From: Rathayibacter sp. Leaf185
Lineage (GTDB): Bacteria; Actinomycetota; Actinomycetes; Actinomycetales; Microbacteriaceae
Reading direction: 5' to 3'
NCBI RefSeq assembly: GCF_001423885.1
Contig: NZ_LMPP01000002.1
Location: forward strand, 256,575-320,574
DNA length: 64,000 nt
Part shown: positions 47,134-64,000 of the stretch, in pieces
How positions within the stretch are numbered: the stretch's first letter is position 1
How the letters are laid out: every line of letters begins with the position of its first letter
Position numbers and translations under genes: made by a program
The notes under the pieces: model-generated
Seen by the model: only the letters and a program-made list of their open reading frames with translations
The model's database searches: none
Told to the model about the DNA's origin: nothing

Positions 47134-48858
47134 TCAGAGGAACTGGCGGAAGTTGGTCGATGCCAAGTCGAGCAGTTCGTCTCCGCGCCCGCTCAGTACT
47201 GTGCGGATGGCGTAGAGCGTGAAGCCCTTCGCCTGCTCCAGTGTCACGTTCGGCGGCATCGAGAGCTCCTGTCGATCCGAGCGCACTGAGATCAAGGCGG
47301 GGCCGTCGTGTGCCAGGGCTCTCGTCATCGCCTCCTCGAGCTCGTCGGAGTCGTCCACACGGAACCCGGCGATCCCGATCGCTTCGGCGACCGCCGCGAA
47401 ATCGGGATTCTTCAGATCCGTACCGAAAGAGACGAATCCGGATGCTTTCATCTCCAGCTCGACGAAGTTCAACGACGAGTTGTCGAACACCACGATCTTC
47501 ACCGGCAGGTTGTTCTGCACGATGGTGATCAGCTCGCCGAGCAGCATCGCCAAGCCGCCGTCGCCGGCCATCGCGATGATCTGCCGGTCGGGGAAGGCGG
47601 TCTGGGCGCCGATGGCGTGCGAGACCGCGTTCGCCATGGATCCATGGACGAAGGACCCGATCACGCGTCGCTTCCCGTTCGTCCTCACATAGCGCGCCGC
47701 CCAGATGACGGGAGATCCGACATCGGGGATGAAGACGGCGTCCTCGTCTGCGAGACGGTCGAGCACTCGAGCGATGTACTGCGGATGCAGGGGCTTCTGG
47801 TGCCCGGCCGGTACGGCCAGGTCGTCCAGTTTCTCGCGGGTCCTGGCGTAGTGCTTCCGAGCCTCGTCGAGGTGGTGACTGTGTCGTGAACCGTTCAGCA
47901 GCGGCAGGAGGGCGAGGGCCGTGTCTCTCACGGTCCCGACCAGTCCGATGTCGACCGGGTGCCGCTTGCCGAGCTGTTCGCCGCGGATGTCGACCTGGAT
48001 GTGCTTCGCTCCCGCGGGATAGAACTGCTCGTAGGGGAAGTCTGTTCCGAGCATGAGGACGACGTCCGCGTCCTCCATGGCCCGGTAGCCGGAGGTGAAT
48101 CCGAGAAGCCCGGTCATGCCGACGTCGTAGGGGTTGTCCCACTCGATGTGCTCTTTGCCACGAAGTGCATGCACTATCGGCGCCTGCAGACGTTCGGCGA
48201 GGGCGATCACCTCGTCGTGGGCTCCCTGCACGCCTGCGCCCGCGAGGATCGTCACCCTGCTCGCGTGGTTGAGCATGTCCGCGGTTCGCTGAAGCTCTCC
48301 TTCGGACGGGATGATGCGGGGCCTTGCCTGCTCCACCCGGACCGTGCGGTGGTGCCAGGCTTCGGCGACCAGGACATCGCCGGGGATGACGAGCACCGCG
48401 ACACCGCGCTTCTCCACCGCGGCGCGCATCGCGATCTCGAGCAGCCGCGGCATCTGCTTCGCGTCAGCGACGTACTCGACGTAGACAGAGCACTCACGGA
48501 AGAGCTCCTGCGGGTGGGTCTCCTGGAAGTAGCCGGTGCCGATCTCCTTCGTCGGGATGTGGGCCGCGATGGCGAGGACCGGGACACGCGATCTGTTCGC
48601 GTCGTAGAGACCGTTGATGAGATGCAGGTTGCCCGGGCCGCAGCCCCCCGCACACACGGCCAGGTCTCCGGTGAGTTCTGCGGAGGCGGCAGCGGCGAAC
48701 GCGGCGGCCTCCTCGTGACGGACGTGCACCCAGCTGACGGTGCCGTCCTTCCGCAACGCGTCGGTGAATCCGTTGAGGGTGTCACCGGGCAGACCGTAGA
48801 TGCGGCGGACGTCGTTCTCACGGAGAGTGGCGACGATGACTTCGGCGACGGTGGGCAT
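47134..48858 (-). CDS. poxB: Pyruvate dehydrogenase (quinone) / pyruvate oxidase PoxB-like
   Basis: A 574-residue thiamine-diphosphate flavoprotein that converts pyruvate to acetate and CO2 and passes electrons to quinone. N-terminal YGLPGDTLNGF and VRHEEAAAFAA (catalytic Glu near 50), FAD-binding middle, and the TPP motif GDGGLAMLLGELITIVQNN near 428-446 followed by VVFDNSSLN. The C-terminal helix is the membrane-contacting part in E. coli PoxB. The ATG at 48858 matches the E. coli N-terminus and has AAAGGAA about 10 nt upstream; an ATG at 48897 is possible. The small downstream protein may belong with it. Confidence 0.92.
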   Translation of the reverse strand: MPTVAEVIVATLRENDVRRIYGLPGDTLNGFTDALRKDGTVSWVHVRHEEAAAFAAAASAELTGDLAVCAGGCGPGNLHLINGLYDANRSRVPVLAIAAHIPTKEIGTGYFQETHPQELFRECSVYVEYVADAKQMPRLLEIAMRAAVEKRGVAVLVIPGDVLVAEAWHHRTVRVEQARPRIIPSEGELQRTADMLNHASRVTILAGAGVQGAHDEVIALAERLQAPIVHALRGKEHIEWDNPYDVGMTGLLGFTSGYRAMEDADVVLMLGTDFPYEQFYPAGAKHIQVDIRGEQLGKRHPVDIGLVGTVRDTALALLPLLNGSRHSHHLDEARKHYARTREKLDDLAVPAGHQKPLHPQYIARVLDRLADEDAVFIPDVGSPVIWAARYVRTNGKRRVIGSFVHGSMANAVSHAIGAQTAFPDRQIIAMAGDGGLAMLLGELITIVQNNLPVKIVVFDNSSLNFVELEMKASGFVSFGTDLKNPDFAAVAEAIGIAGFRVDDSDELEEAMTRALAHDGPALISVRSDRQELSMPPNVTLEQAKGFTLYAIRTVLSGRGDELLDLASTNFRQFL

Positions 48859-49321
48859 GAGGGCACGATTCCTTTCCTCGCAGCGTGATGTTGTCATCAC
48901 TGCCTTCCGACGATGATGGGCCGGTCGGCCGGGGAAAAGATTCATCAAATGACGGAACTCCCGCTCGATCGTCCGCACCTCCACCGTTCTTGCGGTCGAC
49001 GAACGGTTCGGCTCGCGAACTCGTCGACCCCGGAGCGGCGAGGGCCGACACGCGCGCGAGACGTGCCGACACCAGCCGCTCAGGCCGGTGTCGGCGGGTC
49101 GGGCCGGCGCGGCCGGACCGCGCGGCGGAGGGGGTCGCCTGGCTCTCTCTCCTTCTCGAGCGGTCTGACGACGACCGGGCTCCGAGCGGCTGAGCGGAGT
49201 GGGAGTAGAGGTACCCGGGGTTCCGCCGCGCCGGAGGGCGATCAGCGCGACCACGCGGCAGTCCAGGAGGAGCCGCTCCGTCCCGAGCGGTGATCCTCCG
49301 TGATCACCGTCTCCGGCCAGA
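48859..49321. other. 463-bp region without a recognisable gene
   Basis: Upstream region of poxB. No open frame with a known domain or ribosome site was found. It contains an A/T-rich patch near 48935-48950 (unusual for this genome, possibly the poxB promoter) and a 9-bp inverted repeat GCCGACACC/GGTGTCGGC (49065-49073 and 49087-49095). Confidence 0.6.
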
Positions 49322-51105: not shown

Positions 51106-52125
51106 TCAGACGGAGTCGCGCCTCACCGGCGGGCACGCGACGAGCTGCGGGTGCTCGGCGGCAGTGGCACCCCTGCTCAGGAGGAGCCTGACGCCCGCTG
51201 CGCCGAGCTCGTAGTGGGGCAGGGCGACGGTCGTCAGCGGAGGCCGGAGGTGGGCCGCGATCACGTCCTGATTGTCGAAGCCGATCACGGCGACGTCCTC
51301 GGGGATCCGCAGGCCGTGCTCGCGCAGCCCGTCGTAGAGCCCCATCGCGACACGGTCGTTGTGGCAGAACACGGCGCCGGCGCGCGAGGCCAGGATCCGC
51401 TCGGTCGCGAGGTACCCGCCCTCCTGCTCGGGCGAGGCCTCGACGACCAGGTCCTCGTCGAAGGGCAGGCCGGCCGCGTCGAGAGCGGAGCGGTAGCCCG
51501 CGAGCCGGCCGCTGCGAGCGGGGGAGACCGTGGTCGTGTTGATGAAGGCGATGCGGCGGTGGCCCGCGGCCAGCAGCTCCTCGGTCGCCGTCCGGCCGCC
51601 CTGCTCCTCGTCCGGCACCACCGCAGGCAGGCCGCTGCCCGGGGCGAAGCAGTTCACCAGCACGGTGTCGGTCTCCTGCAGCATCTCCGGCACGACGATC
51701 TCGCGGTGGTACCAGGTGGAGTAGAGGATGCCGTGCACCTGGTGCTCGAGCATCATCGCGATCGCCTCGTCCTCGGCCGCGCGGTTGCCGTCGGAGTTCG
51801 CGATCAGGAGCACGTAGCCCTGTCTCCAGGCCTCGTCCTGAGCGCCGTGGATGATCTGGCCGGCGAAGGGAGTGGTCGCGATCGCGTCGGCCACGAGCCC
51901 GATGAAGCGGGAGCTCCCGTGCCGGAGCGTCTTCGCGAGGGCGTTGGGGCGGTAGCCGAGGCGGGCCACCGCCTCCTGGACCCGGAGCCGCGCACCCTCG
52001 CCGATCCGGGCCCCCGGCTTGTCGTTGACGACGTGGGAGACGGTCGCCACGGACACGCCGGCCGCCTTCGCCACGTCTCTCATGGTGACGACCGGTCCGT
52101 TGCGCCCGTGGTCCGTCGTGCTCAT
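51106..52125 (-). CDS. LacI family transcriptional regulator of the fructan locus
   Basis: A 339-residue repressor: N-terminal LacI helix-turn-helix (VTMRDVAKAAGVSVATVSHV, residues about 12-60) and a sugar-binding effector domain (PDEEQGGRTATEELLAAGHR, FCHNDRVAMGLYDGL, VIGFDNQDV). It overlaps the stop of the upstream permease gene by 4 bp, so it is the last gene of the GH32-like/ABC operon and should respond to a transported or processed sugar. The palindromes before the GH32-like gene are its likely operators. Confidence 0.95.
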   Translation of the reverse strand: MSTTDHGRNGPVVTMRDVAKAAGVSVATVSHVVNDKPGARIGEGARLRVQEAVARLGYRPNALAKTLRHGSSRFIGLVADAIATTPFAGQIIHGAQDEAWRQGYVLLIANSDGNRAAEDEAIAMMLEHQVHGILYSTWYHREIVVPEMLQETDTVLVNCFAPGSGLPAVVPDEEQGGRTATEELLAAGHRRIAFINTTTVSPARSGRLAGYRSALDAAGLPFDEDLVVEASPEQEGGYLATERILASRAGAVFCHNDRVAMGLYDGLREHGLRIPEDVAVIGFDNQDVIAAHLRPPLTTVALPHYELGAAGVRLLLSRGATAAEHPQLVACPPVRRDSV

Positions 52126-53036
52126 CCCTTGGTCGCTCCGCTCTCGAGGCCCTGGATCATGGCCTTGTTCAAGACGAGGAAGACCAGCAGAAGCGGCGTC
52201 ACCGTCACGCAGACCGCCGCGAAGGTGGCCGTCCAGTCAGTGTTCCCCATCGCGCCGATGTAGTTCTGCAGGCCGAGCGGGATCGTCTTCAACCCGTCCG
52301 AGAGGACGAAGGTGTTGGCGAAGATGAAGTCGTTCCAGATGAAGATGCTGTTCACCAGCACGACCGTGATGATCGTGTTCACCGACAGCGGCGACGTGAT
52401 CCTCAGGAAGATCCGGAACGGACCCGCTCCGTCGAGCGAGGCCGCCTCGTACATCTCGGCGGGGATGTACTCGTAGAACGACGAGAACAGGTACACCGCC
52501 ATCGGCAGGGCGAATGCGGCGAGCGGGATGATCATCGACAGGTGCGTGTCGAGGAGTCCGACCCGCGAGTAGTCGATGAACAGCGGGACGAGGGCGATCT
52601 GCACCGGCACGATGATGCCCAGGAGGAACAGCGAGCGCACGACCCTGCTCCCTCGGAATCCGAGGACCTGCAGGGCGAAGGCCGCCATCATCCCGGCCAC
52701 GACGATCACGGCGCTGGCGCCGAGGGTGACGATCAGGCTGTTGACGATGTTCAGCCCGAGGTTCCCGCTCCCGAAGGCGCGGGAGTAGTTCTCGAGCGTG
52801 ACCTCGGCGGGCAGGGCGAACGGGTTGCCGCCGGCGAAGTCGGCGGCGGTGCGGAAGCTGGTCAGGAACAGCCAGGCCAGGGGGTACACCTGCACGAGGA
52901 CGATCGCGACGACGGTCACGGTGAGCAGGATCCGCTGCGCCCGCAGCCGCGGGGACCGGTGCGGCCGGCGCGGGCGCGGTGCCGGGGTGGTCGGGAGAGC
53001 GGCCGCTGTCGGCCGGGTGAGCACGGGCGTGGTCAT
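52122..53036 (-). CDS. Carbohydrate ABC transporter permease (CUT1, MalG type)
   Basis: A 304-residue inner-membrane permease with six helices and the EAA loop for the ATPase contact (MYEAASLDGAGPFRIFLRITSP near 215). About 40 Pro/Arg-rich residues precede the first helix (ILLTVTVVAIVLVQVYPLAW). Start and stop overlap both neighbours by 4 bp. It works with the MalF-type permease and the binding lipoprotein just upstream; no ATPase gene is in this operon. Confidence 0.95.
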   Translation of the reverse strand: MTTPVLTRPTAAALPTTPAPRPRRPHRSPRLRAQRILLTVTVVAIVLVQVYPLAWLFLTSFRTAADFAGGNPFALPAEVTLENYSRAFGSGNLGLNIVNSLIVTLGASAVIVVAGMMAAFALQVLGFRGSRVVRSLFLLGIIVPVQIALVPLFIDYSRVGLLDTHLSMIIPLAAFALPMAVYLFSSFYEYIPAEMYEAASLDGAGPFRIFLRITSPLSVNTIITVVLVNSIFIWNDFIFANTFVLSDGLKTIPLGLQNYIGAMGNTDWTATFAAVCVTVTPLLLVFLVLNKAMIQGLESGATKG

Positions 53037-53971
53037 GAGTCGTCCCTTCGACGCAGGAGCAGGAGGATGATGCCGACCGCGATCAGGCACTCGATCACGA
53101 TGAAGACCGAGATCGCGCTGGCGTAGCCGTAGTCGGTGTGCACGAAGGCCGTCTTGTACATGTAGGTCGTCAGGAGCTCGGACGACTGGCCCGGCCCGCC
53201 GTTCGTGAGTAGGTAGGGGATGTCGAACCCGCGCAGGGCGAAGGTGGTGGCCATGATCGTCGTGGTGATCCAGACCGGGCGGATGTACGGGAAGCGCACT
53301 CGCCAGAACAGCTGCCACCAGGTCGCGCCGTCCAGCCGGGCCGCCTCCTCGAGCTCGCGCGGGACGGCCAGCAGGGCGGCGTAGATGATCAGCATGTACA
53401 GCCCGGTGAAGCGCCAGCCCTCCGGGATCGACACGGCGGCCAGCACCGTCGACACGTTCGAGAGCCAGGCCGTCTGCAGGCCGTCGAGCCCGATCCAGCC
53501 GAGAGCCTGGTTGAGCAGTCCCAGCGGCTCCAGCGAGTAGATCCGCTGGAACAGGATGGCGATCGCCACGGTCGAGATGACGGCGGGCAGGAGGTAGAGC
53601 GTCTTGACCAGCTCGCGGGCCCGCGGGAGGGCGGTGAGCAGGCTCGCGACGATGAGCGCGCCGCCGAGCTGGAGCACGAGGCAGATCGCCAGGTAGCCGA
53701 GGGCATTGCCGAACGAGGTCCAGAAGACGTCGTCGCGGGTCAGCATCTTGACGTAGTTGTCGAGGCCGACGAAGGCCATGTCGGTGATGCCGTCCCAGCG
53801 GAAGAAGCTCAGGACGAGCGACTGCACGATCGGGAGCAGCACGGCCAGCCCGTAGACCACGAGCGGTGGCAGGAGGAAGACGAGGACCGAGAGGCGGGAG
53901 CGGCGGGGGAGCATCGAGGCGACGGCGGGCCGCGCGCGTCGCCTCGTCGGCGCGGGAGCGAGCTCAGTCAT
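53033..53971 (-). CDS. Carbohydrate ABC transporter permease (CUT1, MalF type)
   Basis: A 312-residue inner-membrane permease with six helices (first VFLLPPLVVYGLAVLLPI; EAA loop LEEAARLDGATWWQLFWRV near 215). The ATG at 53971 overlaps the stop of the binding-protein gene by 8 bp. With the MalG-type subunit it forms the membrane channel for a sugar, inferred to be a fructo-oligosaccharide or related fructoside from the enzyme genes around it. Confidence 0.95.
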   Translation of the reverse strand: MTELAPAPTRRRARPAVASMLPRRSRLSVLVFLLPPLVVYGLAVLLPIVQSLVLSFFRWDGITDMAFVGLDNYVKMLTRDDVFWTSFGNALGYLAICLVLQLGGALIVASLLTALPRARELVKTLYLLPAVISTVAIAILFQRIYSLEPLGLLNQALGWIGLDGLQTAWLSNVSTVLAAVSIPEGWRFTGLYMLIIYAALLAVPRELEEAARLDGATWWQLFWRVRFPYIRPVWITTTIMATTFALRGFDIPYLLTNGGPGQSSELLTTYMYKTAFVHTDYGYASAISVFIVIECLIAVGIILLLLRRRDDS

Positions 53972-55304
53972 CGCTGTTCTCCGCGAGGGCCGCATCCATC
54001 GTCTCGACGAACTGGTCGGGAGTGGTGTCGCCCTGGACGAGCAGGGTCAGCTCCTGCTGCAGGCGGGTGTTGGTGGCGGGGTCGAGCTGGGTGTCCCAGG
54101 GCATCGCGATGGCGGAGCCGACGCTGTCGGCCTGCTCGACGGCGCGGGTGTACAGGGGCGTGGCGTCGGCGGGGACGGCCGTGGTGGCCGTGGTGGTGGG
54201 CGAGAGGGCGCCGGTGGCGGCGTAGACCTCGGGGTAGCGCTTCAGGGCGAAGGCGAGGAAGTCGCGCACCAGCGGGTCGTAGGTCTGGGAGTTGACGGCC
54301 ATGCCGATGCCGGACGGGGTGACGTACTCGTCGTCGGCGGTCACGGCTCCCTCGACGCTCGGCAGGGTGAAGTAGTCGACGGAGTCGCGGACCGCGGGGT
54401 CGAGCGCCTCGGTCGCGAGGTTGCCCAGCTCCCAGGTGCCGATGTTGTAGACCGCGGCCTTCCCCGAGGTGAAGAGCGCCTGCGCATCGGCGTAGCCCGT
54501 CGACGAGAAGCCCTCCTGGAAGCAGCCCGCCTCGCCGAGCGACGAGAGCCACTCGGCCGCGGCGCGACCGGGCGCGTCCGAGAAGGAGGCCTCACCGTTC
54601 TTGAGGTCCTGCACGTACTGCGGACCCGCCGTGCGGAACGGGTAATAGGCCATGTAGCGCTCGAGCGGCCACTGGTCCTGGCCGTCCAGGGCGATCGGCG
54701 TGACGCCCTGGGCCCGCAGCGCCTCGCACATCGCGGGGAAGTCGTCGAGGGTCGCGGGGACGGTGACTCCGGCCTTCTGCAGGAGCGCCTTGTTGTACCA
54801 GAAGAACTCCAGCTGGAACTCGAACGGGACCATGTACAGCGATCCGTCGTCGAAGCGCTGGTAGTCGAGGGCGGCCTCCCGGTACTCGTCGGCCAGGCCG
54901 AGGTCCTCGAGCAGGGCGTCGACGTCCATCATCCGGCCCTGCCCGGCGAGCTTCTGCGCGAACGGGGTGGCGTCGGTGTCGAAGAGCTCGGGCAGCTTGT
55001 TCGCGGCGGCGAGCGTCTCGTACTTCTGGACGTACGAGGGGCGGTCGGGGGTCGTGATCAGATCGAGCTCGAAGCCGGGGTGGTCGGCCGCGTACTCGTC
55101 GGCGATCTGCTGCATCGCCGTGATGACGCCTCCGTCGGCGGGGCGCGAGAGCAGCCACGAGATCGGGCGCGGGACGATCTCGCCCTCGGGGTTCACGTCG
55201 GTGGGGGCTGCACCGGACGAGCCTCCGGCGCAGCCGGAGAGGAGCAGGACGAGGGCGGTCGAGGCTGCGGCGAGGAACGAGCCTCTGCGCGTGATGGCGG
55301 GCAT
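53964..55304 (-). CDS. Extracellular sugar-binding lipoprotein of the CUT1 ABC transporter
   Basis: A 446-residue solute-binding protein. Residues 1-25 form a lipoprotein signal with lipobox LLLSGC, so it is anchored outside the membrane. SBP-type features follow (YVQKYETLAAANKLPELFD, MVPFEFQLEFFWYNK, FTSGKAAVYNIGTWEL, PSGIGMAVNS). The ATG at 55304 was chosen over 55319 because GGAGAT lies 7-12 nt upstream of it. It stands between the GH32-like gene and the two permeases. Confidence 0.95.
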   Translation of the reverse strand: MPAITRRGSFLAAASTALVLLLSGCAGGSSGAAPTDVNPEGEIVPRPISWLLSRPADGGVITAMQQIADEYAADHPGFELDLITTPDRPSYVQKYETLAAANKLPELFDTDATPFAQKLAGQGRMMDVDALLEDLGLADEYREAALDYQRFDDGSLYMVPFEFQLEFFWYNKALLQKAGVTVPATLDDFPAMCEALRAQGVTPIALDGQDQWPLERYMAYYPFRTAGPQYVQDLKNGEASFSDAPGRAAAEWLSSLGEAGCFQEGFSSTGYADAQALFTSGKAAVYNIGTWELGNLATEALDPAVRDSVDYFTLPSVEGAVTADDEYVTPSGIGMAVNSQTYDPLVRDFLAFALKRYPEVYAATGALSPTTTATTAVPADATPLYTRAVEQADSVGSAIAMPWDTQLDPATNTRLQQELTLLVQGDTTPDQFVETMDAALAENSDD

Positions 55305-55364
55305 GATCGGAATCTCCATTGATCGGTGTGGGTGGTGGGCGTGCGGGGTGGGGAGTCGACGGGG

Positions 55365-56834
55365 TCAGGCGTCGGCGGAGACGAGCAGGCGCGCCTCGTC
55401 GGAGTCGGTCGCCGGTCGGCGTTCGGCGAGGGCGAAGCCGACGATCTCGACCCGGCCCTCTCCGACGAAGACGCCGACCTCGCCGGCGGGGCGGTCGTAC
55501 AGGCGCGTGCTGAGCACGACGGCGTCGTCGACCGTGGCGATGCAAAGGTCGCCGTCGACGACGACCTCGAGCTCGTGGCGGCCGGGTTCGAGGCGGACCG
55601 GCCGCTCGAGCTCCACGGCGAAGGGGACGTCGCCCGAGATCTGCCACTGCTCGGTCCCGGTCGCCCGGCGGGGCCACCGGTCGATGACGAGGCGGTGGCG
55701 ACGCGGTTCGAGGCGCAGGACGTAGCTCTCGTCGCCGTCGGCGCTCGCCCGGAGGAGCACGCCGCACTCGGTGGTGCCGGCGCCGATGTCGAGGGTGGCG
55801 ACCAGGCGGAAGGCGGTGGGCGCCTCCGCCCCGGTCAGCAGCTGCGCGTAGCCGTCGGGGGCGTCGAGGACGCTCCCCTCGGGGGGCAGCGGGCGCGGCT
55901 CCTCGAAGCTCTCGCGCAGCTCGTCCGTCGGGTGGAAGGCGAGGGTGCCGTCGGCCCGCTGCTCGGCCTCGAGCACCGAGAGGGTGCCCGCCCACTGCCA
56001 GGCGCCGTCGTCGCTCGAGTCCTCGCGGGAGGCGATCCAGCCGAAGAAGAAGCGGCGGCCGTCCCGCTGGGCCGACTTGGCCGCGTAGAAGGCCCGGCCG
56101 TCGATCGTGTCGTGCTCGGGCACGAGCCAGGGCCCGTGCAGATCGCGCGACATCCGGTAGCGGGTGGCGAAGGAGTCGCTGAACTCCGACCAGACGAGGT
56201 ACCACCAGCCGCCCCAGCGGAAGACCTCCGGGCACTCGTGGGCGAGGTAGCGCCGCGGGTCCCAGAACGGCTCGGCCGGCTGCCAGACAGCCAGGTCGGT
56301 GGAGGTGCACTGCGCGATCACGCCGCGCCGTCGTGAGGGGCCGTCGATGTGGCGGGCCGTGATGAGCATGCGCCAGAGGCCCGCCTCCTCGTCGCGGAAG
56401 ACGAAGGGATCGCGCCAGTCGGCCGTCTCGTAGCCGGGGGTCGCGCCGAAGGTGTCCGCGGGGCGGCGCTGCCAGGTGCGCATGCCGTCGTGGCTGGTCG
56501 CGTGCAGGACGAGCTGCAGGGGGAGGCCGTCGGGACCGCGGTGCTCGGGGTTCTGGCCGGTGTAGAAGACGTGGTGGACGCCCTCGGCGTCCTGGACGAC
56601 GCTGCCCGTGTAGACGTTGAAGTCGTCCGAGTGGGGGCCGCCGGAGTCGAGGGCGACCCCCGCGTCCTCGAAGTCGATCAGGTTCCGCGTGATCACGCGC
56701 CGCCAGGGCATGCCCTCCTTCGGCGTCGCCCGCGTCTCGTGCAGGTGGAAGAGGTGGAACCCGTCATCGTCCTGCCAGGGGATGAGATCCCCGACCCAGG
56801 CGTTCTCGGGGCGGTGGAAGCCGCGCTGACTCAT
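55365..56834 (-). CDS. GH32-like glycoside hydrolase (divergent beta-fructosidase family)
   Basis: A 489-residue cytosolic enzyme (no signal peptide). Five-bladed propeller landmarks of GH32 are present in altered form: ENAWVGDLIPW at about 10-20 (WVGD instead of WMNDPNG; Asp as nucleophile), ADWRDPFVFRD (RDP motif, near 140) and HECPEVFRWGG (EC acid/base, near 205). A beta-sandwich follows from about 330. It should act on fructofuranosides, but the variant nucleophile motif suggests a different linkage or anhydride substrate. GGAG lies 5-8 nt before the ATG. First gene of the LacI-controlled operon. Confidence 0.85.
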   Translation of the reverse strand: MSQRGFHRPENAWVGDLIPWQDDDGFHLFHLHETRATPKEGMPWRRVITRNLIDFEDAGVALDSGGPHSDDFNVYTGSVVQDAEGVHHVFYTGQNPEHRGPDGLPLQLVLHATSHDGMRTWQRRPADTFGATPGYETADWRDPFVFRDEEAGLWRMLITARHIDGPSRRRGVIAQCTSTDLAVWQPAEPFWDPRRYLAHECPEVFRWGGWWYLVWSEFSDSFATRYRMSRDLHGPWLVPEHDTIDGRAFYAAKSAQRDGRRFFFGWIASREDSSDDGAWQWAGTLSVLEAEQRADGTLAFHPTDELRESFEEPRPLPPEGSVLDAPDGYAQLLTGAEAPTAFRLVATLDIGAGTTECGVLLRASADGDESYVLRLEPRRHRLVIDRWPRRATGTEQWQISGDVPFAVELERPVRLEPGRHELEVVVDGDLCIATVDDAVVLSTRLYDRPAGEVGVFVGEGRVEIVGFALAERRPATDSDEARLLVSADA

Positions 56835-56851
56835 GTCACTCCATCGTGTGG

Positions 56852-56863
56852 TTAATCGGTTAC
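56852..56863. promoter_or_regulatory. LacI-type operator, downstream site
   Basis: TTAATCGGTTAC matches the palindrome TTAATCGATTAA with two differences. It lies just after the predicted transcription start of the GH32-like gene. Confidence 0.55.
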
Positions 56864-56867
56864 GCAC

Positions 56868-56897
56868 ACCATAACCGCTTCTCGAGTCATTGATCAA
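56868..56897 (-). promoter_or_regulatory. Promoter of the GH32-like/CUT1/LacI operon
   Basis: Minus strand: TTGATC (56892-56897), 18-bp spacer, TATGGT (56868-56873), about 34 bp before the ATG. Both flanking palindromes touch it. Confidence 0.6.
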
Positions 56898-56908
56898 CCG
56901 TTTAATCA
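56891..56908. promoter_or_regulatory. LacI-type operator, upstream site
   Basis: TGATCAACCGTTTAATCA is an 18-bp palindrome with a central CG and two imperfect pairs, the usual LacI-family form; it covers the -35 hexamer. Confidence 0.65.
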
Positions 56909-56961
56909 CGCGAATTCGGCTCGAGTCGGCCCGGTCGCGACGACGGCTCGAGCGCGACGAA

Positions 56962-56990
56962 GGCCCCGGGCGCGGAGGCGCACCGGGGCC
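56962..56990 (-). terminator. Terminator of the GH172-Dpp-GH32-kinase operon
   Basis: GGCCCCGG (56962-56969) pairs perfectly with CCGGGGCC (56983-56990), 13-nt loop, 14 bp after the kinase stop on the minus strand. It separates the two fructan operons. Confidence 0.6.
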
Positions 56991-57003
56991 GGGTGTGGGG
57001 GCC

Positions 57004-57891
57004 CTAGACGGGACGCCGGAGGAGCCCGCCCGGCGAGCGGATCGTCGCCGCAGCGATCGCCATCGCTCGGGTGAGGGCGAGGATCGGATCCTGGTCGCCG
57101 AGGACGAGCCCGGCGACGACGGTGGTGAAGGTCGCGTCACCGGCACCCATCGTGTCGATGATCGCGCCCGGCGCCGACGCGATGGGCGCCTCGGTGCGCT
57201 GCGAGCGGCCCACGAGGGCTGCTCCGTCGGGCCCCGCCGTCTCGAGGACCACCCCGGCGCCCGCCGCGAGCAGCCGCTCGGTGGCGTCGGGCAGGCCGGC
57301 GCCGAAGACGAGCTCGGCGTCGTCGGCGCCGACCTTCACCAGATCGGCGCGGGCCGCCAGTCTCAGCAGGCCCTCGGCGAAGGCGGTCCGATCGCGCAGC
57401 AGGCCGTGCCGCGGGTTCGGGTCGAGCGCCAGCCGGGCGGAGGGAGGGAGGAGCGCCTCCAGGGTCCGCACCTCGGCGGGATCGTCGAACGGGAACCCGC
57501 TGACGACGATCACGTCGGCCCGGGCGGCCGCCTGCCGCAGCGCCTCCGTCGGCACGAGCGTCCGCCGGCGCGTCGCCTCGGAGAAGGAGTAGCGCGGCTC
57601 GCCCGCCGAGCGGTCGGAGACGGCGCGCCCGGTGCCGAGCGGAGCCTCGGTCGCCAGCAGCGCGACGCCGTGCGCCTCGAGGTGCCCGCGGAGCAGCGCG
57701 CCGGCCGGATCGTCGCCGACCATGCCGGCGAGCACGGCCGGGACGCCGAGCACCGCGAATCCCACCGCGACGTTCAGCGCGGAGCCTCCCGCGACATCGA
57801 TCGACCCCTCGGGCGTCCGCAGCTCGTCGATCAGCACGTCACCGAGGACGAGGACCGCCGGCCGGACGGCCCTCTCGTGCTCACCGGCCAT
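57004..57891 (-). CDS. PfkB family sugar kinase, probable fructokinase
   Basis: A 295-residue ribokinase-fold kinase: AGGSALNVAVGFAVLG (PfkB signature 1, near 35), DPNPRHGLLRD (near 180) and DTMGAGDATFTTVVAG near 250, with the catalytic Asp in GAGD. Length and motifs fit bacterial fructokinases. The ATG overlaps the stop of the GH32 gene by 11 bp, so it is coupled to the enzyme that releases fructose; it should make fructose 6-phosphate for glycolysis. Last gene of the upstream fructan operon. Confidence 0.9.
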   Translation of the reverse strand: MAGEHERAVRPAVLVLGDVLIDELRTPEGSIDVAGGSALNVAVGFAVLGVPAVLAGMVGDDPAGALLRGHLEAHGVALLATEAPLGTGRAVSDRSAGEPRYSFSEATRRRTLVPTEALRQAAARADVIVVSGFPFDDPAEVRTLEALLPPSARLALDPNPRHGLLRDRTAFAEGLLRLAARADLVKVGADDAELVFGAGLPDATERLLAAGAGVVLETAGPDGAALVGRSQRTEAPIASAPGAIIDTMGAGDATFTTVVAGLVLGDQDPILALTRAMAIAAATIRSPGGLLRRPV

Positions 57892-59254
57892 CGAGCACGG
57901 TGACGTCGAGGGAGACGTCCGCGAGCACCGCGGACTCGGAGCGCAGCAGCACGGCGATGTCGTCGTCGGCGGGGAAGATCTGGTCGGTGAGGACGATGCG
58001 GCCGTCGTCGGCGAACACCTCGATCGAGGAGACGTCGACCCACACGTCGAGCTCGACGCCGCCCTCTCGCGAGGGGACTGCGGCCGTCGAGACACTCGCG
58101 AAGGCGGGCGAGAAGCTCGTGTCGCCGGACTCCCGGCGGTCGATGCTCAGGCGGCCCTCCTCGATGCGGACGACGGTGCCGCGCGTGCCGTCGGCCGAGG
58201 CGCGCACGACCAGCTCGAGAGGTGCCGCGGCGGGCCGGCAGCGGAGGCGGATCCGGAGCGCCCGGCCGTGCGCGCTCTCCGGGACCGCGAAGAGCCCGGC
58301 GCTCGGCGACGGGTCGTCGGAGGAGAAGTCGGGCTCCCCGGTCGCAGGAAGGGCCGGACGCTGCACCAGCCGCTCGCCCTCGAGCGAGAGCAGGCGGGGC
58401 AGAGCGGCGGATCCGCGCCACGGCGAGGTCGGGACCGTGTGGGCGTAGTCCCAGTTGCTCATCCACCCGATCATCGTGGGCGCGGGGGAGTCGGACACCG
58501 TCACTCCCGCGTAGAAGTCGCGCCCGCGGTCGAGCCAGTCCCACGACGTCGCGGTGAAGGAGGTGCCGTCGAAGTCGCCGACGAAGTACTGCATGCCCGA
58601 GCCGCCCGCCGGGTTGCCGGGGTTCAGCGAGACCAGCAGCACCCAGCGGCCGTCGAGCGGGAAGAGGTCGGGACACTCCCACACCCCGTCCGTCGCGCCC
58701 GCCGGGCCGAACACCGACAGCGGCGTCCACGAGCGCAGGTCGTCGGAGCGGAAGAGGTGGACCTGGTGATCCAGCGCCTCCACGGTCGCCATCACCCAGT
58801 GGTCCTGGTAGCGGAACACCTTGGGATCGCGGAAGTCGGCGGTGCCGCGGTCCAGGACCACCCCGTGCTTCGTCCAGGTCTCGCCGCCGTCCGTGCTCGA
58901 GGCGAGGGCCTGCGACTGGCTGCCCTCGCGATCGGAGGTGTAGAGCGCCACGAGCGGAGGCTCCTCCGCGGTGCCGAGCCCGGAGGAGTTCGTCGCGTCG
59001 AAGACGATCGAGCCGGAGAAGACGCCCTCGTGCTCATCGTGCAGCAGTGCGACGGGGTGCTCGGTCCAGGTGAGCAGGTCGGCGCTGGAGGCGTGGCCCC
59101 AGCTCATGTTCCCCCAGTCGTCTCCGCTCGGGTTGTGCTGGAAGTAGAGGTGGTAGCGGCCGCCGTGGTGGATCAGGCCGTTCGGGTCGTTCATCCAGTG
59201 GCGGGCCGGTGCGAAGTGCACGGCCGGCCTCACGGAGAGGGCGGTGGTGGTCAT
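57881..59254 (-). CDS. GH32 beta-fructofuranosidase (sucrose/fructan hydrolase)
   Basis: A 457-residue intracellular enzyme. All three catalytic motifs of GH32 are intact: RHWMNDPNGLIHHGG near 20 (Asp nucleophile), FRDPKVFRYQ near 137 (transition-state Asp) and WECPDLFPLDG near 192 (Glu acid/base). The C-terminal beta-sandwich runs from about 310. No signal peptide, so it acts on imported sugars such as sucrose, inulobiose or short fructo-oligosaccharides. The ATG overlaps the ABC ATPase stop by 4 bp; the kinase follows with an 11-bp overlap. Confidence 0.95.
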   Translation of the reverse strand: MTTTALSVRPAVHFAPARHWMNDPNGLIHHGGRYHLYFQHNPSGDDWGNMSWGHASSADLLTWTEHPVALLHDEHEGVFSGSIVFDATNSSGLGTAEEPPLVALYTSDREGSQSQALASSTDGGETWTKHGVVLDRGTADFRDPKVFRYQDHWVMATVEALDHQVHLFRSDDLRSWTPLSVFGPAGATDGVWECPDLFPLDGRWVLLVSLNPGNPAGGSGMQYFVGDFDGTSFTATSWDWLDRGRDFYAGVTVSDSPAPTMIGWMSNWDYAHTVPTSPWRGSAALPRLLSLEGERLVQRPALPATGEPDFSSDDPSPSAGLFAVPESAHGRALRIRLRCRPAAAPLELVVRASADGTRGTVVRIEEGRLSIDRRESGDTSFSPAFASVSTAAVPSREGGVELDVWVDVSSIEVFADDGRIVLTDQIFPADDDIAVLLRSESAVLADVSLDVTVLDGR

Positions 59255-61125
59255 CGAGGGGTCCTCTCGGGGTGCGTGAGCAGGGTGGTGTCGGGGGTGC
59301 CGACGGGGGGAGTGCCTCCGAGGGCGCCGACGACGGGCCGGTCGGCGTCGTCGATGCCGTCGCGGTTCACCCAGTGCGTGCCGGTGATCCACTGCACGGC
59401 CCCGCGGTCGGCGCCCGCGCTGCGGCGGGAGGTGATGCCGGCGATCTCGGCTCGCGCCTGCGCTCGGTCGGCGCGGTCGAAGGCCTCGGTCCGGTGCGGA
59501 TCGGGCGCGGCCGAGATCAGGAGTCGCGTGTAGGGGTGGCGGGGCGAGTCCATGACCTCGGCGCTGCTGCCGCCCTCGACGAGGACGCCCTGGAGCATCA
59601 CGCTCGTGGTGTCGGCGAGGAAGCGGGCCGAGGCGAGGTCGTGGGTGATGTAGAGGATCGAGATCCCCCGCTCGTCTCGCAGGCGGCGCAGGAGCTGGAG
59701 GACCCCCATCCGCACCGAGACGTCGAGCATCGAGGTCGGCTCGTCGGCGAGGATCACCTTCGGGTCGGCGGCGAGGGCGCGCGCGACGGCGACCCGCTGG
59801 CGCTGGCCTCCGGAGAGCTCGTGCGGGTACCGGTCGAGGAACCCGGGGTCGAGCTCGACCGACTCCATCAGCTCCTGGGCGCGCGCGACGCGCTCGCGGG
59901 CGTTCAGCTCGGGAGCGTGCAGGACCAGGGGCCGCTCGAGGAAGTGGCGGACCTTCTTCGTCGGGTTCAGCGATCCGAAGGGGTCCTGGAAGACCATCTG
60001 CACCGTTCGGCGGTAGTTCCGCGACGCTCGGCGGGGCTCCTTCTGCAGGACGTCGACACCGTCGACGACCATGCGGCCGGAGGTCGGCTCGACGAGGCGC
60101 GCGAGCATCCGCGCGATGGTGCTCTTGCCACTGCCGGACTCGCCGACGAGGGCCATGATCTCGCCCGCGTGCAGCTCGAGGTCGGCGTGGTCGACGGCGA
60201 CCGTGGACTTCTTCGAGAAGAGCCCGCCGGTGCGGAACTCCTTGGTCAGCCCGCTGAGCGAGACGACGACCTCGCGCTCGTCGGCCTTCTCGACCGGGGC
60301 CGCCTCGCCGCCGGTGCTCCGCTGGATCGGCGGGAACGCCGCGATCAGCTTGCGCGTGTAGTCGCTCTGGGGGTTCGCGTACACCTCGCGCGACACTCCG
60401 CTCTCGAGGAGGCGGCCGTGCCGCATCACGCCGAGCCGCTGCGAGATCTCGACCATGAGGGAGAGGTCGTGCGTGATGAAGAGGATCGCGAAGCCCAGGC
60501 GCTGCTGCAGCTCCTTGATCTCGTGGATGATCTCCTGCTGCACGACCACGTCGAGGGCCGTGGTCGGCTCGTCCATGATCAGCATCGGCGGTTCGAGCGC
60601 GAGCGCGATCGCGATGACGGCGCGCTGCCGCATGCCGCCCGAGAGCTGGTGCGGGTAGGCGTCGATCCGATCGCGGTCGATCCCGACGAGCTCGAGCAGC
60701 TCGGCCGCTCGGGCCCTGGCGGCCCGACGGCTGTCGCCGCGGTGGGTGGCGAGGACGTCGACGATCTGGTCGCCGACGGTCATCACCGGATTGAGCGCGT
60801 TCATCGCGCTCTGGAAGACCATCGAGACGCGGCTCCAGCGGAAGCGGCGCAGCTCCTCGTCGTCGAGGGAGGTGACGTCGACGCCGTCGCAGTGGATGGA
60901 GCCCGAGACGACGCGGCCGTTGGCGCCGAGGAGCCGGAGGATCGCCGTGGCGATCGTCGACTTGCCACTGCCGGACTCGCCCGCGAGGCCGAACGTCTCG
61001 CCGCGGCGGATCGTGAAGGACACGTCGTCGACGGCGCGGACGGTGCCGGCCCCGGTCTCGTACTCGATCGAGAGGTTGCGGACGTCGAGGACGACGTCGT
61101 CGGTCGAGGGGGAGGAGGTGCTCAT
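59251..61125 (-). CDS. Dpp/Opp-type ABC transporter, double ATPase subunit
   Basis: A 624-residue protein with two full ABC domains in one chain (DppD-DppF fusion type). Domain 1: Walker A GESGSGKST near 50, signature LSGGMRQRA near 163, Walker B LIMDEPTTALD near 185. Domain 2: GESGSGKST near 322, LSGGQRQRV near 435, LADEPTSMLD near 458. Each is followed by the oligopeptide-transporter C-terminal element (NPQSDYTRKLI; SPRHPYTRLLI). It overlaps both neighbours by 4 bp. Placed inside a fructan operon, it probably energises oligosaccharide rather than peptide uptake. Confidence 0.95.
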   Translation of the reverse strand: MSTSSPSTDDVVLDVRNLSIEYETGAGTVRAVDDVSFTIRRGETFGLAGESGSGKSTIATAILRLLGANGRVVSGSIHCDGVDVTSLDDEELRRFRWSRVSMVFQSAMNALNPVMTVGDQIVDVLATHRGDSRRAARARAAELLELVGIDRDRIDAYPHQLSGGMRQRAVIAIALALEPPMLIMDEPTTALDVVVQQEIIHEIKELQQRLGFAILFITHDLSLMVEISQRLGVMRHGRLLESGVSREVYANPQSDYTRKLIAAFPPIQRSTGGEAAPVEKADEREVVVSLSGLTKEFRTGGLFSKKSTVAVDHADLELHAGEIMALVGESGSGKSTIARMLARLVEPTSGRMVVDGVDVLQKEPRRASRNYRRTVQMVFQDPFGSLNPTKKVRHFLERPLVLHAPELNARERVARAQELMESVELDPGFLDRYPHELSGGQRQRVAVARALAADPKVILADEPTSMLDVSVRMGVLQLLRRLRDERGISILYITHDLASARFLADTTSVMLQGVLVEGGSSAEVMDSPRHPYTRLLISAAPDPHRTEAFDRADRAQARAEIAGITSRRSAGADRGAVQWITGTHWVNRDGIDDADRPVVGALGGTPPVGTPDTTLLTHPERTPR

Positions 61126-62057
61126 TTCCGGAGGCCCTTCTTCTTCGCGCGGATGAGGCGCGGATTGGTGATCTCGTCGACCGCGTAGTTGATGAGCGCG
61201 AGCGAGAAGGCGACGAGCGCGATCGCGACGCCGGAGGGGACGAAGGTCCACCAGGTCGCCCGGATCAGGGAGCCCTCGATGCTCGACCAGTAGAGGTTCG
61301 TGCCCCAGCTGACCGACGAGACGTCGCCCAGGCCCAGGAACTCCAGGCCCGCCTGAGCGCCGATGCCGAAGATGACGCACGCGAGGAAGGTGCTCATCAC
61401 GACGGACGCCATGTTGGGGAGCATCTCGCGCAGCATGATGTGCAGCGAGCGCTCGCCGGTGACGACGGAGGCGTCGATGAAGTCCTTGCCGCGCAGCGAC
61501 AGCGCCTGCGAGCGGATGACGCGGGCCGAGCCCGCCCAGCCCGTGGCGACGAGCACCAGGATGATCGTGCCCGGCCCGGGCGGCAGGAACGCGGCGAGGA
61601 TGATCAGCAGCGGCAGTCCGGGGATCAGCAGGAACACGTTGGTCACGACGGAGAGCACGTCGTCGACGACCCGCCCGAAGTACGCCGAGGCGAGGCCGAC
61701 GATTAGTCCGACGACCGTGGCCGCGATGCCGACCGCGAATCCGATCGAGAGCGAGCTGCGCGACCCCCAGAGCAGGAGGGCGAGGACGTCCTCGCCCTTC
61801 GCCGTCGTGCCGAGCAGGTGGGCGAGCGAGGGCGCTTCGGAGCCGGCGACCACGGCGGTGTTCGGATCGCCGGGGGAGAGCAGGGGAGCGGCCAGCGAGA
61901 GGAGGACGAAGAGGGCGAGGATCGCGACGCCGACGACGGCGCGGCGGTCCTTGAGGATCCGCGCGAGGAAGTGGCTGCGCACGGCGCGGGTGGGCGCGGG
62001 CGTCGCGCTCAGCGGGTCGTCGATCGCGGTGGCGGGGAGGGGGTTCTGGAGGGACAT
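61122..62057 (-). CDS. Dpp/Opp-type ABC transporter permease, DppC-like
   Basis: A 311-residue permease: N-terminal cytoplasmic stretch, OppC-N helix (VVGVAILALFVLLSLAAPLL), GTTAKGEDVLALLLWGSRSS (GTDxxGRD-like element near 87) and five further helices, with the EAA-type loop GERSLHIMLREMLPNM. GGAGGGAC precedes the ATG. It begins 2 bp after the DppB-like gene stop and overlaps the ATPase gene by 4 bp. Confidence 0.95.
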   Translation of the reverse strand: MSLQNPLPATAIDDPLSATPAPTRAVRSHFLARILKDRRAVVGVAILALFVLLSLAAPLLSPGDPNTAVVAGSEAPSLAHLLGTTAKGEDVLALLLWGSRSSLSIGFAVGIAATVVGLIVGLASAYFGRVVDDVLSVVTNVFLLIPGLPLLIILAAFLPPGPGTIILVLVATGWAGSARVIRSQALSLRGKDFIDASVVTGERSLHIMLREMLPNMASVVMSTFLACVIFGIGAQAGLEFLGLGDVSSVSWGTNLYWSSIEGSLIRATWWTFVPSGVAIALVAFSLALINYAVDEITNPRLIRAKKKGLRK

Positions 62058-62059
62058 GG

Positions 62060-63037
62060 CTACCTCACTCGCACGCGCGGGTCGAGCCGCACGTAGACGA
62101 TGTCGATCAGGAAGTTGGCGATCAGGACGGCTGCGGTCAGGGTCAGGAAGATCCCCTGCATCAGCGGATAGTCGAGCGCCTGCACAGCGCGCAGCAGCTG
62201 GTACCCGATCCCCGGGTAGGCGAAGACGACCTCGGTCAGCAGAGCGCCGCCGACGACGAAGCCGATCGACATGCCGAACGAGGTGATCGAGGGGAGCATG
62301 GCGTTGCGGGCGGCGTAGCGGAACATGATGCGCCCCTCCCGCAGGCCCTTGGCGCGGGCCATCGTGATGTAGTCCTCGGCCGAGGTCGCGATCATCGTGT
62401 TGCGCATCCCGAGCATCCAGCCGCCGATCGAGACGGCGACGATCGTCACCGCGGGCAGGAACAGGTGGGTGAGCACGTCGCCGAGGAACTGGGGTGAGAA
62501 GGACGGCTGCGAGCCGAGCGTGAAGGCCTGCCCGATCGGGAACCACCTCAGCGTCACGGCGAAGAGGAACAGCGCGCCCATCGCGATGAAGAAGTAGGGG
62601 AACGAGCCGACGAAGACGAGCAGGGGCGGGAGGATGCGGTCGAGGACGCCGTTGCGGCGCCAGGCGACCACGATGCCGAGCAGGTTGCCGAGGATCACAG
62701 CGACGATCAGCGCGGAGCCGCCCAGCAGCAGGGTCCAGCCGAGCTGTGTGCCGATCACCTGGGTGACCGGCGTCGGGAACTGCGAGATCGACATGCCCAG
62801 CTGCCCGGTGAACACGTCGCCGAGGTACTGCACGTACTGCAGCGGCAGCGGTCGGTCGTCGAGCCCGAACAGGTGGCGGAACTGGTCGATCTGCTCATCG
62901 GTGAGCGAGCCCTGCATCGTGCCGATCATCCGGCCGACGGGATCGCCGGGGATGAGGCGGGGGAGCAGGAAGTTGATCGTCAGCGACGCCCAGAACGCGA
63001 TGAGGTAGAAGCCGAGCCGACGGAGCACGAAGGTCAT
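62060..63037 (-). CDS. Dpp/Opp-type ABC transporter permease, DppB-like
   Basis: A 325-residue permease: RRLGFYLIAFWASLTINFLLPRLIPGDPV at the N-terminus is the usual DppB start, six helices follow and the inner loop carries ARAKGLREGRIMFRYAARNA (EAA type). AGGAGGAC lies about 8 nt before the ATG. It pairs with the DppC-like subunit and the double ATPase. The matching binding protein is not in the window and may lie beyond 64000. Confidence 0.95.
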   Translation of the reverse strand: MTFVLRRLGFYLIAFWASLTINFLLPRLIPGDPVGRMIGTMQGSLTDEQIDQFRHLFGLDDRPLPLQYVQYLGDVFTGQLGMSISQFPTPVTQVIGTQLGWTLLLGGSALIVAVILGNLLGIVVAWRRNGVLDRILPPLLVFVGSFPYFFIAMGALFLFAVTLRWFPIGQAFTLGSQPSFSPQFLGDVLTHLFLPAVTIVAVSIGGWMLGMRNTMIATSAEDYITMARAKGLREGRIMFRYAARNAMLPSITSFGMSIGFVVGGALLTEVVFAYPGIGYQLLRAVQALDYPLMQGIFLTLTAAVLIANFLIDIVYVRLDPRVRVR

Positions 63038-63076
63038 GAGAGTGGTCCTCCTGAGGTGTTGGGGAAGAAGGAAGGG

Positions 63077-63106
63077 CGTCCCGCCCGGCGCGCGCCGGGC
63101 AGGACG
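63077..63106 (-). other. Strong intercistronic hairpin between the GH172 and DppB-like genes
   Basis: The perfect 18-bp palindrome GCCCGGCGCGCGCCGGGC (63083-63100) is extended by CGTCC and GGACG on either side. It starts 4 bp after the GH172 stop, with no T tract. It may be a partial terminator or an mRNA-stabilising structure that sets different levels of enzyme and transporter. Confidence 0.65.
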
Positions 63107-63109
63107 GAG

Positions 63110-64000
63110 TCAGCGGGGGACACGGTCCGCTCGCGACGGGAAGGGCCGAGCCGGGCGGCTCGGGGAGTCCTGGTACCAGTAGGCGACCGAGGACACGTCG
63201 TCGGAGCGCTCGACGAGGTCCGGGCCGACCTGCCCGATCTGCTGCAGGGTCACCCGCAGGCTCTCGTGGAAGTAGACCGGGTCGGGCTCGTGCCACCGGT
63301 ACATACCGTGGACGGGCGCCATCGCTGTCGCGTACACCGCCTGCTGGGACTCGTCCCGGGTCGAGTACTGGGGGTAGCCGACGTACGGGGCGCTGTAGGT
63401 GAGCACCTGCGGCTCGAACTCCTTCGACAGGCGGTCCTGGAACGCCCAGGCGCCGCCGTAGTAGTCCTCGGTCCCGGTGCCGCAGATCGTCGGGTGGTCG
63501 GTGTCGCCGTCGAGGAAGAACTTCATCTCGCCCTCGCCCCACCAGTACCGCTCGAGCTGGACGATCGTCAGCGAGGTGCCGACGAGCACTCCCGAGCCCT
63601 CGACGCCGTCGAGGACCGTGTAGTCCACGCCTCGGGTCGTGGGGTTCTCGCGCCGGTACTCCGCGTGGAAGCGGAGCGGTCCGATCTCCGACGTGTCCTT
63701 CTTCTCGAGGTAGTCGATCTGGTAGAACAGCCCGCCCACGTCGACGGGGTGCTGGTTCTCGAGGGTGATCCGCGCCCCGTCGGCGAAGGGCATCGTGAAG
63801 TACGCGTTCATCCCCCCGGTCGGCGCGACGAGCACCAGGCTCGAGGTGACCAGGCTGCGCTGCCCGTTCCCGTTGCAGAAGAAGTCGCCCAGCGGCGCCT
63901 CGACGGCGGGCGTCTCGGAGCCGTCCCAGTACATCCGCAGCACCAGGTCGCGCAGCACGAAGCCGACCGCCTCGGTGTGCGTGGACACCGTGAACCAGAG
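63110..64000 (-). CDS. GH172 (DUF2961) glycoside hydrolase, partial (N-terminus beyond window)
   Basis: The last 297 residues are visible; the frame is open to the right edge (LWFTVSTHTEAVGF at the border), so the start is outside. Family features: LRMYWDGSETPAVEAPLGDFFC, the GTGTEDYYGGAW motif near the middle with a conserved Glu, and HEPDPVYFHESLRVTLQQIG, with a Glu/Asp pair. DUF2961 became GH172 through a Bifidobacterium dentium alpha-fructofuranosidase that makes and cleaves difructose dianhydride I; other members attack D-arabinan. The GH32 and fructokinase neighbours favour the fructofuranosidase role. No secretion signal can be judged. Confidence 0.88.
   Translation of the reverse strand, partial: LWFTVSTHTEAVGFVLRDLVLRMYWDGSETPAVEAPLGDFFCNGNGQRSLVTSSLVLVAPTGGMNAYFTMPFADGARITLENQHPVDVGGLFYQIDYLEKKDTSEIGPLRFHAEYRRENPTTRGVDYTVLDGVEGSGVLVGTSLTIVQLERYWWGEGEMKFFLDGDTDHPTICGTGTEDYYGGAWAFQDRLSKEFEPQVLTYSAPYVGYPQYSTRDESQQAVYATAMAPVHGMYRWHEPDPVYFHESLRVTLQQIGQVGPDLVERSDDVSSVAYWYQDSPSRPARPFPSRADRVPR

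Follow-up and report, generated by a model that had tools for sequence, protein, structure and literature searches.

Two adjacent modules of Rathayibacter sp. Leaf185 as a candidate system for uptake and cytoplasmic cleavage of short levan products

Which sugar is served by a locus that encodes a GH172 enzyme, several GH32 enzymes and a PfkB-family kinase together with two ATP-binding cassette (ABC) importers? Such a locus lies at one end of a 64,000-nucleotide stretch (the window; G000:C2:256575-320574, 71% G+C) of the genome of Rathayibacter sp. Leaf185 (G000; 4.1 Mb, Microbacteriaceae). An earlier, sequence-only reading of the window had described two adjacent operons for intracellular use of fructosides, with the emphasis on α-linked difructose anhydrides (DFAs). 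Levan, a common plant and bacterial polymer, is a β-2,6-fructan, and levan fructotransferase (LFTase) converts it to DFA IV, which is β,β-linked. The interpretation that we favour, with modest confidence, is that the locus comprises two adjacent, separately regulated modules that import short levan products for cleavage to fructose in the cytoplasm.

Family calls made with Pfam models recovered every gene type that the sequence-only reading had named, all on the minus strand (Table 1). Module 1 is transcribed in the order LacI2, Opp-type binding lipoprotein, GH32B, GH172, OppB, OppC, fused OppD-OppF, GH32c and PfkB, with overlaps of a few bases at GH32B/GH172 (4 bases), OppB/OppC, OppDF/GH32c and GH32c/PfkB; module 2 follows as GH32A, CUT1 binding lipoprotein, two CUT1 permeases and LacI1, and its operon holds no ATPase gene for the CUT1 system. 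The boundary between the two operons is a 169-bp gap between PfkB and GH32A with an operator pair inside it, and looking past position 64,000 supplied the GH172 N-terminus, GH32B, the Opp-type binding lipoprotein and LacI2. Intracellular fructoside catabolism with two importers, GH32 enzymes and a PfkB kinase, as proposed earlier, is supported.

A pointer to levan comes from the GH32 enzymes themselves. By sequence, both GH32A and GH32B are nearest to the endo-levanase BT1760, and for GH32A a structure model also placed the fold nearest to BT1760, at 24% identity in the structural alignment. GH32A matched the GH32 models with 89 bits in the N-domain (cut-off 22.1) and 26 bits in the C-domain (cut-off 21.9), and its predicted catalytic acids Asp16, Asp142 and Glu200 were invariant in 11 of 11 aligned rows. 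Judged by eye, the nucleophile motif at residues 15-16 leaves no room for a signal peptide.

Gene neighbourhoods in relatives point the same way. In Plantibacter (G120, L046) the module-2 operon and a GH32 gene are followed by the gene of a levan fructotransferase-like protein that scores 941 bits against the Arthrobacter enzyme 4fff and has an N-terminus that looks twin-arginine-like by eye, and LFTase homologues also adjoin module 2 in L057, L052 and L051 (72, 66 and 52% identity). We surveyed 249 Microbacteriaceae genomes, of which 27 carried GH32A at 50% identity or more and 13 an LFTase homologue at 50% or more, the latter line having been drawn after the table was seen; GH32A was present in 12 of the 13 LFTase-bearing genomes and in 15 of the 236 others (Fisher p = 2e-12, counted by genome). 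At the level of genera, 8 of the 9 with LFTase were among the 19 of 85 with GH32A (p = 1e-5). Nine pairs of the two genes shared a contig, spaced 7.1-9.9 kb apart, and the remaining three lay on different contigs. GH32A is the best candidate for an intracellular DFA IV (or levanbiose) hydrolase and CUT1 for its importer; their operon is a concrete DFA IV candidate with a strong link to LFTase.

In L057-L059 module 1 is adjoined by a homologue of the LevB1-type endolevanase; L060 and L063 have one next to GH172 and a BT1760-type GH32. The L058 copy scored 488 bits against LevB1 (9h8i) versus 316 against LFTase; the other four copies are 69-75% identical to it, and a copy in L062 is more distant (42%). 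A crude pattern detected a twin-arginine signal in 4 of these 6 homologues.

Among other GH32 genes, Leaf185 encodes a 1094-residue protein (L053:8123-11404, at G000:C1:913 kb) that, judged from its N-terminus, is probably secreted. Its N-domain match is interrupted by about 340 residues, as it also is in G221 and G045.

The grouping of the locus genes is not due to chance, because the order from LacI2 to GH32c is kept in a congener (G221, L016) at 86-98% identity and the gene set recurs in the Microbacterium loci L057, L058 and L059. GH32B and GH172 are adjacent in L003, L016, L057-L059 and L062. Each module also occurs by itself: module 1, minus PfkB, is found without module 2 in the congener, which has no GH32A, and module 2 without module 1 in G116, G120, G079 and G142. 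The two are adjacent in Leaf185 and, in the opposite order, in L057 and L059. Homologues of LacI1 (54-82% identity) accompany the GH32A operon in relatives.

The region upstream of GH32A has a promoter-like stretch with a palindrome-like site on either side. The first site, GATTAAACGGTTGATCAA, is the sole match in Leaf185 at up to one mismatch and had the same position in all four relatives searched, and GTAACCGATTAACCA forms the second site of the pair. Shuffles of the window gave a mean of 0.24 LacI1-type sites at up to three mismatches versus four observed, two of them at the place of the first site, and a reversed control of the pattern matched once, in G116. The region upstream of LacI2 carries a different operator, CTAACGCGCGTTAG with CTGGCGCGCGACAG, which is kept in L016 and appears in a varied form in L057-L059. 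This pattern was confined to the locus in the two genomes searched; its uniqueness proves little, because a reversed control gave about equally many matches. With putative operators that differ, the two modules appear to be separately regulated, and the idea of the whole region as one regulon was rejected, the two operators being unrelated.

The module-1 operator has a third copy, CTGGCGCGCGTTAG, within the gene for the Opp binding protein, at its 5' end (G000:C2:323874-323887; L003 about 18875-18888) and at a distance of about 1.2 kb from the main operator; the congener G221 has it too. By analogy with lac O2 it could permit looping, or it may be due to chance or codon constraint.

The harder question is posed by GH172. 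Its closest solved relative is the exo-α-D-arabinofuranosidase ExoMA1 (8ic8, 269 bits), followed by 4kq7 and 8ah3, and αFFase1 of Bifidobacterium dentium, the founding member of GH172, scored 127 bits. A model of the GH172 of the close relative L057 has the double jelly-roll fold, with the best match to 8ic8 at a template modelling score of 0.72, then 4kq7, 8ah3 and 7v1v; its mean pLDDT (predicted local distance difference test) is 72, and 88 of its 364 residues fall under 50. The predicted catalytic residues Glu228, Glu250 and Asp251 (Glu270, Glu291 and Asp292 of αFFase1) do not vary among the 7 aligned members, and neither does the residue at the selectivity position, Ala258. According to the accessible text of PMC10509167, Gly299 of αFFase1 explains the acceptance of fructose and Asn253 of ExoMA1 its exclusion. 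Ala258 is small like that glycine, yet not glycine, and stands where ExoMA1 has Asn253.

A quick tree was built from 123 rows, without L021_6773 and L043_823. It placed the window GH172 in a set of 55 rows (53 with Ala and 2 with Gly at the selectivity position), supported by a Shimodaira-Hasegawa-like approximate likelihood ratio (SH-aLRT) of 97, and in neither the αFFase1 clade (9 rows, 100) nor the ExoMA1 clade (29 rows, 100). Lys147 of the +1 subsite is present in a 7-row αFFase1 subclade, and the 57 Ala rows all have a gap there; as far as the accessible text of PMC8605356 goes, mutation of this lysine left 4.8% of the inulobiose activity of αFFase1 and 94% of its aryl-arabinofuranoside activity. 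The earlier statement that GH172 is known to cleave α-linked DFAs is therefore not directly transferable to this enzyme, which is outside the αFFase1 clade and lacks the lysine. By alignment and tree, it belongs to a large clade outside both characterised GH172 clades whose selectivity residue is intermediate, and the alanine makes the question of fructose versus arabinose directly testable.

We counted neighbours within flanks of up to about 10 kb a side in the best 80 of 430 relatives, a non-random sample, with clade labels assigned from the quick tree and with correction for two duplicate loci (L067, the same as L013, and L110, the same as L018). The Ala group had a GH32 nearby in 23 of 53 loci, a complete BT1760-type GH32, with all three acidic motifs required, in 13/53 (18/59 by a looser count), PfkB in 20/53 and the endo-D-arabinanase family DUF4185 (GH183) in 0/53; the Asn group gave 0/24, 0/24, 2/24 and 14/24, respectively (the five other rows of the Asn clade, L043_823 among them, are outside both counts). 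A GH32 was near 7/7 αFFase1-type Gly, 0/14 Cys and 3/12 Ser members. By genus, the Ala and Asn groups gave 13/24 versus 0/14 (p = 0.0009), and a GH32 would be nearby by chance in about 1.6% of cases per 21 kb, if there are three GH32 genes per 4 Mb. The rows share ancestry, and the contrast between the clades amounts to a single evolutionary split observed repeatedly, because a comparison of residue with neighbour along independent branches of the tree yielded only 2 pairs. In Acrocarpospora and Streptomyces (L065, L082) GH172 sits within the module-2 operon itself, between a CUT1 permease and LacI1; a copy at the module-2 position in L105 aligns in two pieces.

Other GH172 genes came to light in the same material. 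A second one in Leaf185 (L005:8592-14223; G000:C2:191591-197222), about 128 kb away, belongs to the same clade and is 57% identical; its operon is LacI-CUT1-GH172, without GH32, kinase or Opp genes, a type common among the 80 fetched loci. A stretch of about 30 kb (L025 and L045; G359:C190) combines an Ala-clade GH172, a GH32A-CUT1 module, more GH32 genes and a second, distant GH172 (34% identity). In the fragmented genome G113, a 1331-codon open frame (L024:1399-5391) contains two GH172 stretches, and its short contig also carries a homologue of GH32A. A clade of Ser-type GH172s (12 rows, support 99), mostly from Clostridia, comprises L116, L118-L120, L122, L124, L126, L127, L131, L132, L134 and L135, and a Gly-type GH172 (L102, 57% identity) occurs in a Halobacteriales archaeon assembly.

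We read the Opp-type importer as one for sugars. The best solved match of its binding protein is the chitin-oligosaccharide-binding 1zty (265 bits), from an entry set that carries a peptide-binding label too; peptide-binding-labelled rows followed at 244-246 bits, a mannoside-binding protein at 157 and the dipeptide-binding 1dpp at 56. In Paenibacillus, Opp-type importer genes are directly paired with GH172 of the Cys group, which belongs to another clade, in 8 of 14 loci, an independent hint that this kind of importer goes with GH172. These eight Paenibacillus operons (L098, L104, L111, L123, L125, L128, L130 and L136) had no GH32 that was found nearby.

From this material we infer the substrates, the part of GH172 and the repression as follows. 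The CUT1 system of module 2 would take up DFA IV, levanbiose or both, and GH32A would open or split them, leaving the other fructosidases to finish. The Opp-type importer of module 1 may take up levan oligosaccharides such as the products of endolevanase, from which GH32B and GH32c would release β-linked fructose; GH172 might remove an α-D-fructofuranosyl unit or open an α-linked difructose anhydride beyond the reach of GH32. PfkB would yield fructose 6-phosphate, and each LacI would repress its own module until its sugar ligand arrives. The strain may scavenge levan fragments, since no LFTase or LevB1-type endolevanase was detected in Leaf185, and it could then live on what neighbours release or on fragments from its own secreted exo-inulinase-like GH32.

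Several observations weigh against this proposal, besides the late drawing of the 50% line. The weakest link is GH172, which makes little sense on purely β-linked levan or DFA IV; because both are β-linked, it must act on an α-linked companion or on something that we have not considered. By analogy with αFFase1 and inulobiose, such a companion could be a mixed dianhydride or an α reducing-end species. Further, in 30 of the 53 Ala-clade loci the fetched flanks contain no GH32, which leaves room for a wider role of GH172. In GH32A, the subsite residues Gln239 and Arg244 of BT1760 are missing, being a Phe and a gap in the alignment. Among the 27 Microbacteriaceae genomes with GH32A, 15 have no LFTase match, Leaf185 included; GH32A is absent from 4 Microbacteriaceae genomes in which the closest LFTase-type homologue stays below 50% identity, and a scan across the class showed GH32A in only 2 of the 11 genomes that had an LFTase homologue. 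The search of Leaf185 for LFTase or a LevB1-type endolevanase gave no match at E<=1e-60, a threshold at which LevB1-range homologues (39-46%) were picked up in other genomes, and its one clear secreted GH32 is nearest to exo-inulinase 8i12. As to PfkB, the best named models are fructokinase, matched weakly (72 bits, cut-off 450; PDB 7fca 59 bits), and in the congener L016 no PfkB match follows GH32c; the fructokinase call is weak by score and draws mainly on context.

The closeness of the secreted GH32 to an exo-inulinase also speaks for a different account, an inulin route through DFA I or DFA III as in B. dentium, in which GH172 would convert DFA I to inulobiose, the GH32 enzymes would split it and PfkB would phosphorylate the fructose, without levan. 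Its precedent is the B. dentium operon BBDE_2039-2043 (PMC8605356, accessible text), with LacI, GH32, GH172 and an ABC transporter, a proposed role in DFA I use and, as here, enzymes without a secretion signal; as described there it has one importer and one GH32, and neither a BT1760-type GH32 nor a second importer is mentioned. The earlier reading knew of no described system with this exact gene set; we did not find the combination in the open-access literature either, and its core is known from that operon. In Microbacteriaceae, too, αFFase1-clade GH172s sit with GH32, PfkB and CUT1 (L019, L020, L021). The window GH172, however, is not of that clade and lacks the +1 lysine, which leaves it unsupported as a DFA I enzyme in the B. 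dentium sense, and the extracellular enzymes that adjoin the locus in relatives are levan enzymes. A search of Leaf185 for GH91, made without a GH91 family model, returned generic beta-helix matches only, and two frames near homologous loci considered as inulin fructotransferases were rejected (L047:14614-15969 had no match, and L045:15616-18207 is a MalT-like regulator). We regard the inulin route as unlikely; the context in relatives is one of levan and β,β-linked DFA IV more than of inulin or α-linked DFAs, though Leaf185 itself lacks those extracellular enzymes.

Use of D-arabinan or of α-D-arabinofuranosides, with GH172 as an exo-α-D-arabinofuranosidase like its closest solved relative, would gain from the ability of αFFase1 to act on both fructofuranosides and arabinofuranosides (PMC8605356, accessible text), by which either activity is possible. 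It is very improbable, given the separate clade, the Ala in place of Asn253, an operon that encodes β-fructosidases, and the contrast in DUF4185 between the Ala and Asn loci; a search for this endo-D-arabinanase gave 0 candidates in Leaf185 and none in G221, G187, G120 or G165. The D-arabinan locus of Microbacterium arabinogalactanolyticum likewise has an actinobacterial GH172 near an ABC importer and differs in its DUF4185 (GH183) and GH116 genes and in Asn253, with no GH32 mentioned in the accessible text of PMC10509167; as the main function we rejected D-arabinan degradation. General scavenging of sucrose and fructo-oligosaccharides, in which any small fructoside would serve, the modules would be neighbours by accident and GH172 a passenger, fits the different operators, the separate occurrence of the modules and the 15 genomes with GH32A and no LFTase match. 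Against it stand the kept GH32B-GH172 adjacency, the second arrangement in which the modules are adjacent (L057 and L059) and the strong GH32A-LFTase linkage, and we think it quite unlikely.

Uptake and cytoplasmic cleavage of short levan products, the reading that we prefer, has partial parallels. In the Bacteroides levan utilisome, BT1760, which GH32A and GH32B resemble most and whose GD, RDP and EC motifs they keep, is bound to the cell surface according to the accessible literature, whereas GH32A and GH32B are predicted to be cytoplasmic. The three-stage DFA III pathway of Arthrobacter and Blautia (accessible text of PMC8605356 and PMC11538131) shares extracellular formation of the dianhydride, ABC uptake and intracellular hydrolysis, as well as a GH32 and a kinase, and Blautia DFA III clusters are described as combining GH91, GH32, sugar kinase and ABC genes (PMC11538131). 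That pathway uses inulin and GH91, in contrast to the GH32 chemistry on levan predicted here, with the extracellular enzyme only in relatives.

In the open-access literature we came across no gene described for the import or the intracellular hydrolysis of DFA IV; what is new here is a candidate for each, and a GH172 clade not yet characterised. DFA IV has drawn attention as a functional sweetener (PMC6828762, accessible text). If the strain is indeed a scavenger, it would cross-feed on a sugar that its producer makes to hoard. A bolder extension, which we consider rather doubtful, is that GH32A founds a family of cytoplasmic DFA IV hydrolases and completes with CUT1 a pathway from levan through DFA IV to fructose, parallel to that from inulin through DFA III, and that the Ala clade of GH172 is a third functional class, opening α-linked or mixed difructose anhydrides derived from levan or its β-2,1 branch points, DFA V being one example; in Leaf185 the user would be a scavenger without extracellular levan enzymes. 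DFA V is α/β 1,2':2,6'-linked, and the accessible text of PMC6245366 calls the enzyme that forms it not yet isolated.

Table 1. Genes and putative operators of the two modules (window positions unless a locus is given)
Feature	Position	Strand	Remarks
LacI1, regulator, last gene of module 2	51106..52125	-	Pfam LacI 57 bits, Peripla_BP_3 123 bits
CUT1 permease, MalG type	52122..53036	-	BPD_transp_1 60 bits; 62-96% in relatives' module 2
CUT1 permease, MalF type	53033..53995	-	BPD_transp_1 67 bits
CUT1 substrate-binding lipoprotein	53964..55304	-	SBP_bac_1 98 bits; lipobox-like LSGC at N-terminus, by eye
GH32A, divergent, predicted cytoplasmic GH32, BT1760 type; candidate DFA IV/levanbiose hydrolase	55365..56834	-	GH32N 89 bits
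Second site of putative LacI1-type operator pair, GTAACCGATTAACCA, beside GH32A start	56849..56863	-	conserved upstream of GH32A in relatives
First putative LacI1-type operator, GATTAAACGGTTGATCAA	56890..56907	-	
PfkB kinase, probable fructokinase, last gene of module 1	57004..57888	-	PfkB 102 bits; overlaps GH32c
GH32c, canonical β-fructofuranosidase	57881..59257	-	GH32N 281 bits, GH32C 79 bits; motifs WMNDPNG, FRDPKV, WECPDLF
Fused OppD-OppF ATPase, start codon uncertain	59251..61131	-	two ABC_tran stretches, 224 bits; dipeptide/oligopeptide models
OppC-type permease	61122..62063	-	BPD_transp_1 72 bits and OppC_N
OppB-type permease	62060..63037	-	BPD_transp_1 137 bits
GH172, C-terminal 296 of 368 residues in window	63110..64000	-	PF11175 287 bits, cut-off 27; gene runs on to L003:15791
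GH32B, third GH32, just past 64000	L003:15788-17203		
Opp-type binding lipoprotein, past window edge	L003:17250-18917		
LacI2, second LacI regulator, past window edge	L006:6018 to about 7010		

Downstream of the locus, window positions 47134-49254 hold an open frame for a pyruvate-oxidase-like thiamine-diphosphate enzyme, named by eye from its translation.

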